Positions 25,341 through 36,405 of a stretch of 64,000 nucleotides of DNA are shown here, in pieces. Location: the NCBI RefSeq assembly GCF_013822795.1, contig NZ_PNLB01000010.1, forward strand, positions 62,001 through 126,000, in the 5' to 3' direction. The DNA comes from Phenylobacterium sp. (GTDB taxonomy: Bacteria > Pseudomonadota > Alphaproteobacteria > Caulobacterales > Caulobacteraceae). A program made the translations under genes and the position numbers. Each line of letters starts with the position of its first letter. Positions within the stretch are counted from its first letter, which is position 1. The notes under the pieces are model-generated. The model ran no database searches and was not told the DNA's origin. It was given only the letters and a program-made list of their open reading frames with translations.

Positions 25341-26096
25341 GTGAAAATGGCCCGGATGGATACACGTAACGAACAGTCCGGGGCGGCCGCCAGCGCCCGC
25401 ATTCTGATGGTCGACGACGATCCGGGCATCCGCGATGTGGTGTCCGACTTCCTGGGCAAGCACGGCTACCAGGTCGAGACTGCCGGCGACGCGCGAGAGA
25501 TGGAGCAGGCGCTGGAGCGCGGCTCGGTCGACCTCATCGTGCTCGACGTCATGCTGCCTGGCGAGGACGGCCTAGCCATCTGCCGCCGCCTCGCCGTCGG
25601 CGAAGGCCCGCCGATCATCATGCTTTCGGCGATGGGCGAGGACACCGATCGCATCGTCGGGCTGGAGCTCGGCGCCGACGACTATCTCTCCAAGCCGTGC
25701 AATCCGCGTGAGCTGCTGGCTCGCGTCCGCGCCGTGCTGCGCCGCGCCGAACAGCGCGGCCAGAGCGCGGCGGCCGCCGCCGGCTGCGAATTCGCCGGCT
25801 GGCGCTTCGACCTCGTGCGCCGCGAACTGCGCTCCCCGCAGGGCGTGGTGGTCAATCTCTCGTCCGGCGAGTTCTCGCTGCTGCGCACCTTCGTCGAGCG
25901 GCCGCAGCGGGTGCTGACCCGCGACCAGCTGCTGGAGTTCGCCCGCGGTCCTGATTCCGACGCCTTCGACCGCGCCATCGACGTCCAGATCAGCCGCCTG
26001 CGCCGCAAGCTCGATGACGGCGGCGGCGGCCAGGACCTGATCCGCACCATCCGCAACGAAGGCTACATGTTCACCGCCAAGGTGAAGCGCCTGTGA
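25341..26096 (+). CDS. OmpR-family response regulator
   Basis: Up to 251 residues. Receiver domain with the acidic trio DDD near residue 24-26, phospho-acceptor Asp in VLDVMLPGEDG near 68, and Lys in SKPCNPREL near 117. The C-terminal winged helix has LLRTFVERPQRVLTRDQLLE and DVQISRLRRKL, typical of OmpR/PhoB. The start could be GTG 25341 or ATG 25356. The stop overlaps the kinase GTG start by 4 bases, so the pair is translationally coupled. The stimulus is unknown. Confidence 0.93.
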   Translation: MKMARMDTRNEQSGAAASARILMVDDDPGIRDVVSDFLGKHGYQVETAGDAREMEQALERGSVDLIVLDVMLPGEDGLAICRRLAVGEGPPIIMLSAMGEDTDRIVGLELGADDYLSKPCNPRELLARVRAVLRRAEQRGQSAAAAAGCEFAGWRFDLVRRELRSPQGVVVNLSSGEFSLLRTFVERPQRVLTRDQLLEFARGPDSDAFDRAIDVQISRLRRKLDDGGGGQDLIRTIRNEGYMFTAKVKRL

Positions 26097-27442
26097 CCGC
26101 GCCCTGGGCCGGGCGGCCGACCGCATCCCTGTTCGGTCAACTGCTCGCCCTGATCGGGCTCAGCCTCGTCGCCGCCCAGGCGATCAGCCTGTTTCTGCTG
26201 TTCAACCTGCCGCCGCCGGCCCCGGACTTCTACCGGATCGGCGAGATCGTCCAGACCCTGCGCGGCTCGCCGCCGACCTTCACCGAGCGTCACCCGCTGA
26301 CGGTCACCATCGCCAAGACCCCGCCCCACCTGGTGATGGAGGGGCGGATGACGCCGAAGATCCGCGCCCAGATCGCCGCGGGGCTCGGCGTGCCGGTCGA
26401 GCGGGTGCAGGTCGCCTCGACCTCGCGGTTCCCGTTCTCCGACCGCCGCGTCTTCCGGGTCATCCGCGACCGCATGGCGCGCGAGGGCGGCGAGGTCGAA
26501 GACCATTTCATGATCGCGCCCTTCAAGGTCGCCGTGCAGCAGCCGGACGGCCGCTGGAAGGTGCTGTCGCCCGAGCGCGGCATCGGCCTCGACGCCTGGC
26601 AGCAGCGGATCGTGCTGCTGTTCCTGCTCTCGGCCCTGGCCATGACCCCGGTGGCCTTCGTCTTCGCCCGCCGGCTCTCCGCGCCCATCAGGCTTTTCAC
26701 CGATGCGGCCGAGCGGCTCGGCCGCGACCCACGCGCCCCGCCGCTGTCGCTCAAGGGCTCGGCCGAAATCAGCGTCGCGGTGAAGGCCTTCAACGACATG
26801 CAGGAGCGTCTGCGCCGCTACGTCGAGGACCGCACCGCCATGGTCGGGGCCATCGCTCACGACCTGCGCACGCCCCTGACCCGTCTGCGCTTCCGCATCG
26901 AAAACGTGCCCGAGGACGTGCGCGTGAAGATGGCCGCCGACATCGACCAGATGGAGGCGATGATCTCCGCGGCCCTGACCTTCGTGCGCGACACCAGCCG
27001 GCCGGGTGAGCGGACTTTGCTGGAGCTCTCCTCGCTGCTCGAAAGCGTCTGCGACGAGATGGCCGACACTGGGGCCGACACCCAGGTCGAGCTCGGCGAG
27101 AAGGTGGTGCTGGAGGGCGACCCCCTGGCCCTGCGCCGGCTGTTCGCCAACCTGCTGGAGAACGCGGTCAAGTTCGGCGGCCGCGCCCGCGCCCGCGTCT
27201 ATCGCGACGGCGCCAGCGCCATCGTCGAGATCGAGGACGACGGCCCCGGCATCCCGCCCGAGGAGATGGAGCGGGTGTTCGAGCCCTTCTATCGGCGCGA
27301 GCCCTCGCGCAGCCGTCAGACCGGCGGCATCGGCCTGGGACTGGCCGTGGTGCGCTCGGTGGCCCGCGGCCATGGCGGCGACGTCGTGCTGGAAAATCGC
27401 CTCGGCGGCGGCCTTACCGCCCGCGTCCAGCTGCCGATCTGA
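26093..27442 (+). CDS. EnvZ-like sensor histidine kinase
   Basis: 449 residues, GTG start overlapping the regulator stop. Two membrane helices (about 15-40 and 165-190) flank a periplasmic sensor of roughly 125 residues. HAMP follows (PIRLFTDAAERLG), then the phospho-acceptor histidine in AIAHDLRTPLTRL near 260. The ATPase domain shows NLLENAVKFGG near 352, EDDGPGIP near 382 and GIGLGLAVV near 415. The layout matches EnvZ partnered with the preceding OmpR-type regulator. Confidence 0.93.
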   Translation: MTAPWAGRPTASLFGQLLALIGLSLVAAQAISLFLLFNLPPPAPDFYRIGEIVQTLRGSPPTFTERHPLTVTIAKTPPHLVMEGRMTPKIRAQIAAGLGVPVERVQVASTSRFPFSDRRVFRVIRDRMAREGGEVEDHFMIAPFKVAVQQPDGRWKVLSPERGIGLDAWQQRIVLLFLLSALAMTPVAFVFARRLSAPIRLFTDAAERLGRDPRAPPLSLKGSAEISVAVKAFNDMQERLRRYVEDRTAMVGAIAHDLRTPLTRLRFRIENVPEDVRVKMAADIDQMEAMISAALTFVRDTSRPGERTLLELSSLLESVCDEMADTGADTQVELGEKVVLEGDPLALRRLFANLLENAVKFGGRARARVYRDGASAIVEIEDDGPGIPPEEMERVFEPFYRREPSRSRQTGGIGLGLAVVRSVARGHGGDVVLENRLGGGLTARVQLPI

Positions 27443-27920: not shown

Positions 27921-30146
27921 TCAGGCCCTCAGCAACACCACTGCGAAGCTTGGGGCGGGGCTTTTCCAGCTCCGCTCCAACTTCCAGCCGGCTTCCGACG
28001 CCAGGTCCGCAAACCCCTCCATCGTGAACTTGTAGGAGTTCTCCGTGTGGATGGTTTCGCCCGCCGCGAAGCGGAACGTGCGCCCCGCCACGCTGACCAG
28101 TTGGTCGCGCTGGCTCACCAGATGCATCTCGATCCGGCTCTGATCGGCGTTCCACACCGCCTGGTGCTTGAACGCCGCAAGATCGAAGTCCCCCGCCAGT
28201 TCGCGGTTGATCCGCGCCAGCAGGTTCAGGTTGAAGGCCGCCGTCACGCCCTGGGCGTCGTCATAGGCCGCCGTCAGCGTCTCCGCGTCCTTGGCCAGGT
28301 CGATGCCGACCAGGAACCGCGCGTCCTCACCCAGCAGCCGCCGCGCCCCTGACAGGAACGCGACCACCTCGTTGGGCGTGAAGTTGCCGATGGTCGAGCC
28401 GGGGAAGTAGCCGACCCGCGGATGGCCCGCCGCATCCGGCAGCGCCAGGGCCTTGGTGAAGTCCTCCACCAGCGGCGCGACCTTCAGGTTCGGATAGTCC
28501 CGCCCGATCGCCGCGGCCGCCGCGTCCAGCGCCGAGGCGCTGATGTCGATGGGCGCATAGACGGCCAGCTGCGGGGCGGCGTCGAGCAACAGCCGGGTCT
28601 TGGTGCTCGCCCCGCTGCCGAACTCCACCAGCGTCGCGCCGGCCGGAATCGCCGCGGCCATCTCGCCCGCGGTCTCGCGCATCAGCGCCAGCTCGGTGCG
28701 GGTCGGATAGTACTCAGGCAGCTCGGTGATCGCCTCGAACAGCGCCGAACCCTCGGCGTCGTAGAAGTACTTGGCCGGCAGCGCCTTCTGCGGCCGCGAC
28801 AGCCCAGCGACCACGTCGCGCGCAAACTCGCTGTCCGGCGCCGACTCGGCCGGCCGCGCCGGCCCGTCCCAGGCCAGCCGCACGCCCGAGAACATCCACC
28901 GCTGCTGCGGATAGAAGAAGTTGCGGTAGCTGGCCCGCACATGCCCCGACGGCGTCGCGCAGCAGCCGCCGCGCAGCACCATCTGGCCGATCATGAACTT
29001 GCCATTGTACTCGCCGACCGCCCCGCCCGCTGGATGGAAGCCGGGATAGGGCGAGTAGGCGCTGCGGGTCCATTCCCAGACATCGCCGAACATCTGGCGC
29101 AGGCCCGGCGCCGACTTCGCCGCCGCGGGCCCGAACTGCCGTTGCTCGCGCAGATTGCCGGCCAGCGCCAACCCTTGCGCGGCGTGCTCCCACTCCGCCT
29201 CGGTCGGCAGCCGCGCCCCAGCCCAGCTCGCATAGGCGTCGGCCTCGTAGAAGCTGACATGGGTGACCGGCGCGTGCGGCGCGATCGCCCGCCGGCCCTG
29301 CAGGGTCATGGCCAGCCAGCCGCGCTCGCCCTGCTCCCAGTAGAGCGGCGCCTCCCAGCCCTCGGCCTGGACGCGCGCCCAGCCCTCCGACAGCCACAGC
29401 TCGGGCCGCCGATAGCCGCCGTCGGCCATGAAGGCCAGCCACTCGCCGTTGGTCACCAGCCGGTCGGCCAGCCGGTACGGCTCCAGATAGACTTTGTGCC
29501 GCGGCCCTTCGTTGTCGAACGCGAAGCCCTCGCCGGCATGGCCGATCTCGACCACGCCGCCGTCGAAGGCGACCTCGCCTGCCGGACCAGGATCGCGCCC
29601 GACCGGCAGCGCCGGCGCCGGCGCATAGGCGGGCTTCAGCGGCGACTGCGCGAACAGGTGCAGCACGTCCATCAGGATCAGCTCCTGATGCTGCTCCTCG
29701 TGCGCCAGACCCAGTTCGACCAGCTCGGCCAACCCCTCGACCGGCCCGGCCAGCAGACGGCTCATCGCCTCGTCGACATGCGCCCGATAGGCCAGCACCT
29801 GGCCCAGAGACGGGCGGGTCAGCAGCCCGCGCTGCGGGCGCGGCTGCCGCGGCCCCAGCGCCTCGTAGTACGAATTGAACAGGTAGCCGAACGCCGGATC
29901 GAACACCCGGTAGCCCGGCAGATGCGGGACCAGCAGGAAGGTCTCGAAGAACCAGGTCGTATGCGCCAGGTGCCACTTCACCGGGCTGGCGTCGGGCATC
30001 GACTGCGCGGCCTGGTCCTCGGCCGACAGGTGCGCCGTCAGCGCGATGCTCGCGTCGCGAACCTTGCGAAAGGGGTCTGGCGCGCCGCGGGCCCGCGCGG
30101 CCCGGGCCGGCGCGGGCGCGAACCTAGCCTTGTCGAATGACGCCAT
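27921..30146 (-). CDS. fused ergothioneine enzyme: EgtB sulfoxide synthase - EgtD histidine methyltransferase
   Basis: 741 residues carrying both halves of ergothioneine synthesis. Residues about 20-430 are EgtB: a DinB-like part with WHLAHTTWFFE near 58 and HEEQHQE near 150 (the three-His iron site), then an FGE-sulfatase domain ending RNFFYPQQRWMFSGVRLA near 420. A Pro/Ala-rich joint near 430-440 leads to EgtD with QKALPAKYFYD, the SAM motif EFGSGAS near 510, YFPGSTIGNF near 575 and a C-terminal beta module. EgtD would trimethylate histidine to hercynine, and EgtB would add sulphur with oxygen. No EgtE-like lyase is nearby. It is transcribed from an exact EcfG-type promoter 72 bases upstream. 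Confidence 0.93.
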   Translation of the reverse strand: MASFDKARFAPAPARAARARGAPDPFRKVRDASIALTAHLSAEDQAAQSMPDASPVKWHLAHTTWFFETFLLVPHLPGYRVFDPAFGYLFNSYYEALGPRQPRPQRGLLTRPSLGQVLAYRAHVDEAMSRLLAGPVEGLAELVELGLAHEEQHQELILMDVLHLFAQSPLKPAYAPAPALPVGRDPGPAGEVAFDGGVVEIGHAGEGFAFDNEGPRHKVYLEPYRLADRLVTNGEWLAFMADGGYRRPELWLSEGWARVQAEGWEAPLYWEQGERGWLAMTLQGRRAIAPHAPVTHVSFYEADAYASWAGARLPTEAEWEHAAQGLALAGNLREQRQFGPAAAKSAPGLRQMFGDVWEWTRSAYSPYPGFHPAGGAVGEYNGKFMIGQMVLRGGCCATPSGHVRASYRNFFYPQQRWMFSGVRLAWDGPARPAESAPDSEFARDVVAGLSRPQKALPAKYFYDAEGSALFEAITELPEYYPTRTELALMRETAGEMAAAIPAGATLVEFGSGASTKTRLLLDAAPQLAVYAPIDISASALDAAAAAIGRDYPNLKVAPLVEDFTKALALPDAAGHPRVGYFPGSTIGNFTPNEVVAFLSGARRLLGEDARFLVGIDLAKDAETLTAAYDDAQGVTAAFNLNLLARINRELAGDFDLAAFKHQAVWNADQSRIEMHLVSQRDQLVSVAGRTFRFAAGETIHTENSYKFTMEGFADLASEAGWKLERSWKSPAPSFAVVLLRA

Positions 30147-30217: not shown

Positions 30218-30242
30218 AACGTCGGACTTGGAACGCAGTTCC
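30218..30242 (-). promoter_or_regulatory. EcfG-type promoter for egtB-egtD
   Basis: On the minus strand GGAAC (30242-30238), 16 bases, CGTT (30221-30218). This matches the general-stress sigma consensus GGAAC-N16/17-CGTT exactly. The -10 ends 72 bases before the fused egt start. Confidence 0.78.
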
Positions 30243-30276
30243 TTGCATTTGGGGGCTCGGCGCGTTCCCGCAACCC

Positions 30277-30301
30277 GGAACGGTTGCCCCAAGGGCGCGT
30301 T
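30277..30301 (+). promoter_or_regulatory. EcfG-type promoter for the ECF sigma gene
   Basis: GGAAC (30277-30281), 16 bases, CGTT (30298-30301), an exact match to the general-stress consensus. It ends 56 bases before the sigma factor ATG, implying autoregulation or control by another EcfG protein. Confidence 0.78.
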
Positions 30302-30357: not shown

Positions 30358-30894
30358 ATGGGCGGTGACACCGAGTGGCGCAACGAGGTGGTGGCGATGA
30401 TCCCCGCTCTGCGCGCCTTCGCATGGTCGCTCAGCCATAACGGGTCCGACGCCGACGATCTGGTGCAGGACACCCTGATCAAGGCCTGGTCCAATCGCGA
30501 CAAGTTCGAACCCGGCACCAACCTGCGGGCCTGGCTCTTCACCATCCTGCGCAACACCTACTACACCCAGGTGATCCGCCGCCGGCGCGAGGTCCGCGAC
30601 GAGACCGGCGAGTACGCCAACAACATGCGCACCCCGCCGACCCAGGACTGGAGCATCGCCATGCGCGCCCTCCAGGCCGGCCTCGCCCAACTGCCCGACG
30701 AACACCGCGAGGCGTTGATCCTGGTCGGCGCCGCCGGCCTCTCCTACGAGGAAGCGGCCGAGATCTGCGGTTGCGCGCTCGGCACCATCAAGAGCCGGGT
30801 CAACCGCGCCCGCGCTCGCCTGCTCAAGATCATGGACGCCGAGGAAGCCGCCGACGTCATGGCCCTCGACCACGCCGAAGCCAGCCGGGCCTAA
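30358..30894 (+). CDS. EcfG-type ECF sigma factor (general stress family)
   Basis: 178 residues with sigma region 2 (LRAFAWSLSHNGSDADDLVQDTLIKAW, near 18-46) and region 4 (LPDEHREALILVGAAGLSYEEAA, then GTIKSRVNRARARL near 145-158). The ILVGA-GLSYEEAA-ICGCA string is the hallmark of the EcfG group that drives general stress responses. The usual nepR and phyR partners are not adjacent, so this may be a second-tier paralogue such as Caulobacter SigU rather than the master factor. GAGGA precedes the ATG, and an exact GGAAC-N16-CGTT promoter lies upstream. Confidence 0.88.
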   Translation: MGGDTEWRNEVVAMIPALRAFAWSLSHNGSDADDLVQDTLIKAWSNRDKFEPGTNLRAWLFTILRNTYYTQVIRRRREVRDETGEYANNMRTPPTQDWSIAMRALQAGLAQLPDEHREALILVGAAGLSYEEAAEICGCALGTIKSRVNRARARLLKIMDAEEAADVMALDHAEASRA

Positions 30895-30903
30895 CCCCCA
30901 AAA

Positions 30904-31038
30904 TGTCATCCCGGTTTCGGCGAAGCCGAAGACCGGGCCCCATAACCACCAGATCTCGCAAGCCTCGGCAGGGCGGGCGTCGCACCTGCAAGCGCGTCGT
31001 GAATGGGTCCCGGTCTTGCTTCGCAAACCGGGATGACA
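30904..31038. repeat. REP-like element with terminal inverted repeats
   Basis: 135 bases bounded by perfect 14-base arms TGTCATCCCGGTTT (30904-30917) and AAACCGGGATGACA (31025-31038). The left end also folds on itself (CCCGGT, TTCGGC-GAA-GCCGAA, ACCGGG), and the right end likewise (CCCGGT ... ACCGGG). There is no coding frame. This is the usual plan of a non-autonomous or RAYT-associated intergenic repeat in alphaproteobacteria. Confidence 0.78.
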
Positions 31039-31118
31039 CCTGTTTCCAAAGCTCAGCGACTGGCGGACACAAGCCCCACCGCTACTATGCCGGGCGACTC
31101 GTTTCGCCTGGAGTATCC

Positions 31119-33051: not shown

Positions 33052-33189
33052 CCCCCACCCTAGCCTTTGCACGCCTGCGCGCGCTGCGACGTTTCGCGCG
33101 TCGGCCGCCCCCGAGTCGATGTCCGCGGCGACGGAACACGCCCCTCGCCCCGCCGTTTCCGAATGGAGGAGCTCTGGAGGATCAGGTCC

Positions 33190-34863: not shown

Positions 34864-36405
34864 ATGTCCATATCTGCAGAACTCGGCGAACGACTAAGTT
34901 TCATGCGTATGGACGACCTCGCTTGCGAGAGTCTCCGGGATATCAAGCCCATCGTCATGAGCGCCCTGCCCGGCGCGCTCGACGCCTTCTACGGCCAGGT
35001 CGCCCAGCGCGAAGAGACACGGGCCTTCTTCTCCAGCTCTCGGCACATCGCCAGCGCCAAGGGGCGCCAGATCGACCATTGGGAGACCATCTCCAGCGGC
35101 CAGTTCGATGAATCCTATGTCGGCGCCGTCACCACCGTCGGCGAGACCCACGCCCGCATCGGTCTGGAGCCGCGCTGGTACATCGGCGGCTACGCCCTGG
35201 TGCTGGAGAATCTGATCGCCGCCGTCACCGCCGCCCGCTGGCCGCGCGGCGGGCTCCTGCGCCGCGGCCCCACTCACGAGCAGGTCGCCGCCGAGCTGGG
35301 GGCGCTCACCAAGGCCACCTTGCTCGATATGGACTATGCGATCTCGGTCTATCTGGCCGCCGCCGAGGCCGCGCGCCGACAGGCCGAGGCTCAGGTTCTG
35401 GCCGCCGAGCGCGCGGCCATCGTCCAGACCATCGGCGCTGGCATGACCGCCCTGGCCGACGGCGACCTCGGCTACCGGATCGAGACCGGGCTGGCGGCCG
35501 AGTACGCCCAGATCCGCCAGGACTTCAACGCCGCCCTCGCCAGGCTGGAGGAAGCGATCACCTCGGTGGCCGGCAACGCCTCCGGCGTCGAGGCCGGCGC
35601 CGACGAGCTGGCCCGCGCCTCCGACGACCTTTCGCGGCGCACCGAGCGCCAGGCCGCCGCCCTGGAGGAGACCGCCGCCGCGCTCGATGAGATCACCGCC
35701 ACGGTCAAGGCCACCGCCGACGGCGCCCGCCAGGCTGGCGAAGTCGTCGCCGCCGCCAAGGCTCAGGCCGAACTTTCCACTACCGTCGTCGAGCGCGCGG
35801 TCGGGGCCATGGGCCAGATCGAGCACTCGTCCGGTCAGATCGGCCGCATCATCGGCGTGATCGACGAGATCGCCTTCCAGACCAACCTGCTGGCGCTCAA
35901 CGCCGGGGTCGAGGCGGCCCGCGCCGGCGAGGCCGGCCGCGGCTTCGCCGTCGTCGCCTCCGAAGTCCGCGCCTTGGCCCAGCGCTCGGCCGACGCCGCG
36001 CGCGAGATCAAGGACCTGATCGGCGCCTCGGCTGGCCATGTCGACGAGGGCGTGGGTCTGGTGCGCGAGACCGGCGCGGCGCTGCAGGCCATCGCCGCCA
36101 AGGTCGGCGAAATCGACGAGGTGGTCGCCGGCATCGCCGCCTCCACCCAGGAACAGGCCTCGGGCCTGGCCCAGATCAACACCGCGGTGAACCAGATGGA
36201 CCAGGGCCTGCAGCAGAACGCGGCCATGGTCGAACAGGCCGCCGCCGCCACCCGCGCCCTACGCGGCGAGGCCGCAGAGCTCACCGGCCTGGTGGCCCGC
36301 TTCCGGCTGTCGGGCCAGGCGCCGCGCGGCGACGCCGGGCCGGTCGGGGCGCTGACCCGGGCCCTGGCCTCGGCGGTCTCCGGCGGCCGGCTCGCCCATG
36401 GTTGA
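34864..36405 (+). CDS. soluble globin-coupled methyl-accepting chemotaxis protein (protoglobin/MCP)
   Basis: 513 residues without membrane helices. Residues about 10-170 form a protoglobin domain with the likely proximal haem histidine in [18 protein letters not shown] near residue 98. A HAMP-like linker follows ([11 protein letters not shown]), then an MCP signalling domain with [25 protein letters not shown] near 340. It probably senses oxygen or another gas and controls CheA-type or similar kinases, like Caulobacter McpB/HemAT relatives. There is no C-terminal CheR pentapeptide. The last 8 bases overlap the hybrid kinase gene, so the two are co-expressed. Confidence 0.92.

Follow-up and report, generated by a model that had tools for sequence, protein, structure and literature searches.

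Two divergent EcfG-type promoter boxes between a fused ergothioneine gene and a second EcfG-type sigma factor gene in Phenylobacterium

In the stretch of Phenylobacterium DNA analysed here (64,000 nucleotides, referred to as the window), the spacer between a fused egtB-egtD gene and an ECF sigma factor gene holds two exact GGAAC-N16-CGTT boxes that diverge toward the two genes. The motif is given as the general-stress consensus in the excerpts of PMC7083833 that we used, and its double occurrence raises the questions of whether the boxes are promoters or chance matches, which sigma factor would read them, and how an ergothioneine gene came to stand back to back with a sigma factor gene.

The two boxes and their conservation

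The leftward gene (egtBD; 27921..30146, minus strand, 741 aa) is predicted to combine the sulfoxide synthase and the histidine methyltransferase parts of ergothioneine synthesis. Its product passed the curated family cut-offs for both EgtB and EgtD (TIGR03440, 588.6 bits with a cut-off of 360; TIGR03438, 406.8 bits with a cut-off of 290.9), and PF10017, PF03781 and PF12867 were likewise above cut-off. An OmpR-like regulator and an EnvZ-like kinase (25341-27442), with best NCBIfam matches below the cut-offs, lie convergent with it. The rightward gene (30358..30894, plus strand, 178 aa) encodes an EcfG-type sigma factor, named EcfG2 here, with Sigma70 regions 2 and 4 and PhyR_sigma2 above cut-off. 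The box facing egtBD (GGAACTGCGTTCCAAGTCCGACGTT; 30218..30242, minus strand) has its -35 element GGAAC at 30242-30238 and its -10 element CGTT at 30221-30218, and the box facing the sigma gene (GGAACGGTTGCCCCAAGGGCGCGTT; 30277..30301, plus strand) has them at 30277-30281 and 30298-30301. An earlier note had described two exact nine-base boxes, back to back and 55-75 bases from the starts they face; our re-reading of the sequence agrees on the boxes and their positions, and the distances are 71 bases to the egtBD ATG at 30146 (minus strand) and 56 bases to the sigma-gene ATG at 30358 (plus strand). Transcription of egtBD would start a few bases below 30218. A sigma-70 promoter in the spacer was considered and set aside, as a simple scan of the spacer for a sigma-70-like site found none.

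The motif by itself does not exceed chance. The window contains 4 matches at spacings of 15-18 against 1.56 expected, a count reached in 12 of 100 shuffles; a third exact match lies at 33133-33157 (plus strand). The window also encodes a globin-coupled chemoreceptor, consisting of a protoglobin and an MCP signalling domain, at 34864-36405. Over the whole genome, with spacings of 16-17, 57 exact sites were found for the motif and 57 for the reversed pattern, and in the lack of any excess we dropped the genome-wide count as evidence. These equal numbers are what a chance origin in GC-rich DNA would give, and it is position and conservation that lift the two boxes above chance. The exact sigma-facing box was present in 28 of 30 homologous spacers, compared with a mean of 0.11 and a maximum of 1 in dinucleotide shuffles and none with the motif reversed; an exact egt-facing box not overlapping it was present in 15 of the 30 (reversed control, 1). 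We then aligned the 28 rows forming the window's clade in the sigma-factor tree, rows that were not selected by box presence. The plus-strand box was invariant in 28/28, the minus-strand box had a mean conservation of 0.96, and the other 193 positions averaged 0.39, so that the boxes are conserved among close relatives, a point on which the earlier note had made its reading depend. One locus with both boxes (L045) is absent from this footprint because it was left out of the tree.

The pattern extends across the family. In a search of 149 genomes, 43 genomes of the family matched the sigma gene at more than 200 bits, and egtB(D) was divergent from and adjacent to it in 37 of these; for the six others we read 400 bases upstream. 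The sigma-facing box was exact in 39/43 genomes and the egt-facing box exact and non-overlapping in 19/43, with three more having one palindromic site that reads both ways, while the reversed-motif controls gave 0 and 1 (all counts leave out a second sigma match of G005, C16:187078-187557). Among the 14 genomes of the window's own genus with ecfG2, egtB(D) was adjacent in 14, the sigma-facing box exact in 14 and the egt-facing box in 11; outside the genus, only 8 of 29 ecfG2 genomes had an exact, non-overlapping egt-facing box. Against the footprint, the shuffles and the family-wide controls, we consider chance matches extremely improbable. The genome also carries a canonical phyR-nepR-ecfG-kinase locus (L006) with an exact divergent box pair between phyR and nepR. 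Counting this locus, 18 of the 20 canonical loci read across the family had such a pair. The motif is therefore very likely the working general-stress promoter in Caulobacteraceae.

A second EcfG lineage and its module

EcfG2 and the EcfG of the same genome share 45% identity. Among the 80 of 583 matching loci listed, the closest named relative is Phenylobacterium sp. Root1290 (ECF 96% identical), and the stretches retrieved for all 57 named relatives outside Caulobacteraceae contained a NepR-like frame, most of them also PhyR. In a tree taking in 28 of these 57 loci, EcfG2 was separated at 100/100 from a group made up of the family's canonical EcfG and the paralogs at G000:C5 and G053:C32, and its own clade comprised 46 rows with a support of 99/86, with the bootstrap not settled. 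One row (L063) fell outside that clade, so the 47 rows first labelled EcfG2 do not form one supported clade. Left out of the tree were L024 and L045, and also L046, L053, L055, L058 and L059, which share DNA with L013, L026, L027, L030 and L035. The identity, the NepR-bearing relatives and the split in the tree together indicate that EcfG2 belongs to a second EcfG lineage and is not the master. It has the sequence kinship with EcfG expected of an EcfG (ECF15) factor and lacks the neighbouring nepR and phyR of the canonical copy. The earlier note had called both the boxes and the sigma gene EcfG-type, which the sequence bears out; its picture of the sigma gene was incomplete in that the gene represents a second lineage, with a nepR and phyR of its own in some relatives.

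The genome has two further EcfG-like sigma genes: one at G000:C5:211160-211633 (L008), which groups with EcfG and shares 64% identity with it, and one on a long branch at G000:C33:7600-8061 (L007). None of the exact motif sites listed for the genome lies near either. We considered whether EcfG2 could be the orthologue of SigU of Caulobacter crescentus; the tree, built without the SigU sequence, lends this assignment no support, as EcfG2 splits from EcfG and the C5 paralog at 100/100. The genome's SigU-like candidate is probably the C5 paralog.

The relatives clarify what the gene pair belongs to. A convergent NepR-like frame (nepR2) follows ecfG2 in 19 of the 43 family genomes and in 4 of the 14 of the window's genus. 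These calls used the canonical NepR HMM at E < 0.01 within 700 bases downstream of ecfG2 (in L030, just 270 bases were available), and several of them are weak, down to 10 bits; in a genome search, eight nepR-like genes directly adjoining ecfG2 exceeded the Pfam NepR cut-off, and Pfam cut-offs were passed by five of six nepR2 proteins and by the single phyR2 protein scanned. Fourteen genomes encode a second PhyR that shares 52-58% identity with the first one, and 10 of them have ecfG2; phyR2 thus occurs in 10 of the 43 ecfG2 genomes, in one of them on another contig. In eight of the ten (G003, G025, G011, G018, G007, G027, G040 and G010) phyR2 comes after egtB(D) in the same orientation, whereas G038 has it close to ecfG2 and not to egtB, and G009 has it at a contig end; G028, a genome without ecfG2, has it after egtBD. 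The phyR2 upstream could be read in 13 of the 14 genomes, and 9 of these contain an exact box. In three of the genomes (G010, G027 and G040), egtB and egtD are separate genes, with egtB in the second module and egtD on another contig. The full arrangement, phyR2 - egtB(D) <-> ecfG2 - nepR2, is present in several Caulobacteraceae genera, and the nepR-like gene, in some relatives with phyR2, beside the pair implies that egtBD is part of a second switch module.

The window has neither of the outer genes. No NepR-like frame was found beside its ecfG2 with the canonical NepR HMM, with an HMM retrained on the relatives (circular, and used only as a sensitive search) or in the lists of open reading frames, and the only PhyR match of the genome lies elsewhere, leaving no phyR2. 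The window's five-row clade in the tree (99/82) similarly showed no NepR-like frame. As such frames occur in genera outside this clade, nepR2 would have been lost, probably several times, and both nepR2 and phyR2 appear to have been lost in the window's lineage. With nepR2 so infrequent in the genus, the window is not unusual in lacking it.

A dispersed palindromic repeat of about 140 bases (30904..31041) closely follows the sigma gene on its downstream side and occupies the place that the convergent nepR-like gene has in some relatives. It was counted at 23 or more separate sites of the genome, many with one arm only (40 of 59 candidates scored), and the region 30900-31048 folds strongly (z -7.0). 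The HMM and open reading frame searches for a nepR2 hidden inside the repeat were negative. Insertion of the repeat is also an unlikely reason for the missing gene, since L041, L013 and L042 lack nepR2 and, by eye, have no repeat at that place.

Which sigma factor reads which box

The box also occurs upstream of egtB(D) beyond the ecfG2 loci. In the 90 upstreams read from the 115 family genomes with a match, a correctly oriented exact box was present in 38 (reversed control, 1). After dropping one upstream of 13 bases, we found the box in 37 of 70 genomes with phyR and in 1 of 19 without (Fisher P = 1.4e-4, uncorrected for kinship, with 15 of the 19 phyR-less genomes belonging to one genus, g14). 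The single exception (G004, L198) has an exact box upstream of egtB yet no PhyR or NepR match in the genome; its box may be a relic or serve another sigma factor, or a contig may be missing. Outside the family, upstreams of egtB were read in 27 of the 76 genomes with a match, and 9 of the 27 contained the exact box (control, 0). The genera differ among themselves. In g22, 14 of 18 upstreams have the exact box and the tested genomes lack ecfG2, so EcfG alone seems to be enough there; g3 has it in 6 of 12, and g21 in none of nine tested, though eight of the nine genomes have phyR. In the window's genus, the box is missing from all four genomes that have egtBD and no ecfG2, three of which have phyR, and in this genus the egt box thus follows ecfG2 and not EcfG. 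The window locus itself has the conserved upstream GGAAC-N16/17-CGTT by which EcfG regulon members are recognised, and the proposal of the earlier note that ergothioneine synthesis is a general-stress output is, judging from the conserved boxes and the identities of the genes, probably correct.

The base directly after GGAAC separates the promoter classes. It is a purine in 39/39 ecfG2 promoters (G in 32, A in 7). A pyrimidine stands there in 38 of 40 boxes from the family's canonical phyR/nepR loci and in 8 of 9 phyR2 boxes; in the named outside loci among those listed, counting boxes no farther than 900 bases upstream from the sigma gene, it does so in 21 of 24 on the plus and 39 of 42 on the minus strand. 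The window follows this division, with G in the ecfG2 box, as in most ecfG2 promoters, and T in the egt box. Such a pattern would be expected if control were split, with the master EcfG reading the egtBD box and the purine-type ecfG2 promoter being read mainly by EcfG2 in an autoregulatory loop over which the master has just partial control. It is in line with the report that, combined with E. coli polymerase, EcfG1 and EcfG2 of Rhizobium etli each favoured the promoter of their own gene (PMC3892343, in the part consulted). On the other hand, the egt boxes do not keep to one type: in the window's genus they are mixed, with a pyrimidine in 7 of 11, and in g22 all 15 sites have a purine though the tested genomes lack ecfG2. 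Moreover, the related promoters are not independent and the recognition (-35-reading) helices of EcfG2 and EcfG differ little. We regard the base after GGAAC as a hint of a separate promoter preference, not as proof of one, and split control as possible and on balance doubtful. Since the second EcfG of R. etli is described as autoregulated and partly independent in the same portion of PMC3892343, a reverse weighting of the two factors is a live rival.

The uneven occurrence of the egt-facing box, missing also in 3 of the 14 genomes of the window's genus, could alternatively mean that strong selection across the family acts on the sigma-facing box only, the egt-facing box being a habit of some lineages and egtBD elsewhere being read backward from a near-palindromic ecfG2 site. 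A G after GGAAC gives CGTT on the opposite strand. In 12 genomes with adjacent egt and an exact sigma-facing box, no separate egt box was found even when one mismatch was allowed; all 12 have G at this position of the ecfG2 box, and 11 of the 12 boxes read backward at 0 or 1 mismatch. Three loci (L287, L288 and L290; genomes G097, G147 and G037) have one perfect palindrome, GGAACG-N14-CGTTCC, between egtBD and ecfG2 that is exact in both directions. Neither figure stands out, however: G and A numbered 12 and 0 without a separate egt box and 13 and 4 with a separate exact one (Fisher P = 0.12), and the backward fit among G-type boxes was 11/12 without and 12/20 with a separate box (P = 0.10). 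Bidirectional reading of one box is suggestive only, and the window's clade has a separate egt box with 96% conservation. We consider this explanation unlikely and retain two separate, divergent stress promoters as the preferred reading for the window.

Known systems and the proposed control

The earlier note had held the link between ergothioneine and EcfG to be undescribed, which is incorrect: the excerpts of PMC7083833 report putative egtB and egtD of Sphingopyxis granuli TFA as members of the general-stress regulon "for the first time", the regulon being made up of genes whose expression falls when both ecfG genes are mutated and which have a GGAAC-N16-CGTT-type motif. The link itself is thus not new, and the S. 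granuli genes resemble those of the window in being counted in the general-stress regulon. By locus tag, the same excerpts place them (SGRAN_4049 and SGRAN_4050) away from the ecfG genes (near SGRAN_1164), whereas the window's egtBD is a fused gene paired with that of an EcfG paralog, which in relatives is accompanied by nepR2 and phyR2. Within open-licence PubMed Central, this was the only paper found to join ergothioneine to EcfG, and no paper was found on an egt-linked second EcfG module; the main text of one further regulon paper, PMC6599016, contains no ergothioneine terms. As far as the literature was searched, the module, its reduction and the promoter sub-type after GGAAC are new.

Second EcfG-type factors are known from elsewhere. 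In the portion of PMC4814048 consulted, SigU of C. crescentus, whose transcription is attributed to SigT, and EcfG2 of Sphingomonas melonis are both reported as factors under the master that NepR does not bind; the EcfG2 of the window probably belongs to another lineage than SigU, judging from a tree built without the SigU sequence. The genome's own canonical locus has the same divergent exact box pair and the same kinds of genes as the second module of the fuller relatives. It differs in arrangement: the canonical nepR lies immediately upstream of ecfG, with both genes on one strand, whereas the second module has egtB(D) diverging from ecfG2 and nepR2 converging on ecfG2 from the downstream side.

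Putting the locus together, we think it probable that the two boxes are real divergent stress promoters through which EcfG drives egtBD and ecfG2, with EcfG2 feeding forward, and that the gene pair is a reduced module. We infer transcription, the assignment of sigma factors to the boxes and the ergothioneine output as follows. Under stress, the PhyR-NepR-EcfG switch elsewhere in the genome would free the master EcfG, which would transcribe egtBD leftward and ecfG2 rightward. EcfG2 would then probably sustain its own promoter and add to the transcription of egtBD, and this feed-forward loop would raise ergothioneine under general stress. The pair egtBD-ecfG2 would be the reduced form of the phyR2 - egtB(D) <-> ecfG2 - nepR2 module and, with nepR2 and phyR2 absent from the window, transcription is probably the only level at which EcfG2 is controlled there, which is also what has been reported for SigU.

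A bolder and more tentative proposal is that the family has a second, ergothioneine-centred switch with a promoter code of its own, purine for ecfG2 and pyrimidine for boxes read by the master, and that the loss of the anti-sigma gene in the window's lineage turned it into a transcription-gated positive loop. If true, such a loop would commit the cell to ergothioneine. The role of extra EcfG copies has been called not satisfactorily explained (PMC3892343, in the excerpts used). Here, one extra EcfG lineage is tied to one metabolic output across much of a bacterial family, and its natural variants, with or without the anti-sigma gene and phyR, allow tests in ordinary laboratory strains of what the additional sigma factor is for and how ergothioneine is controlled.
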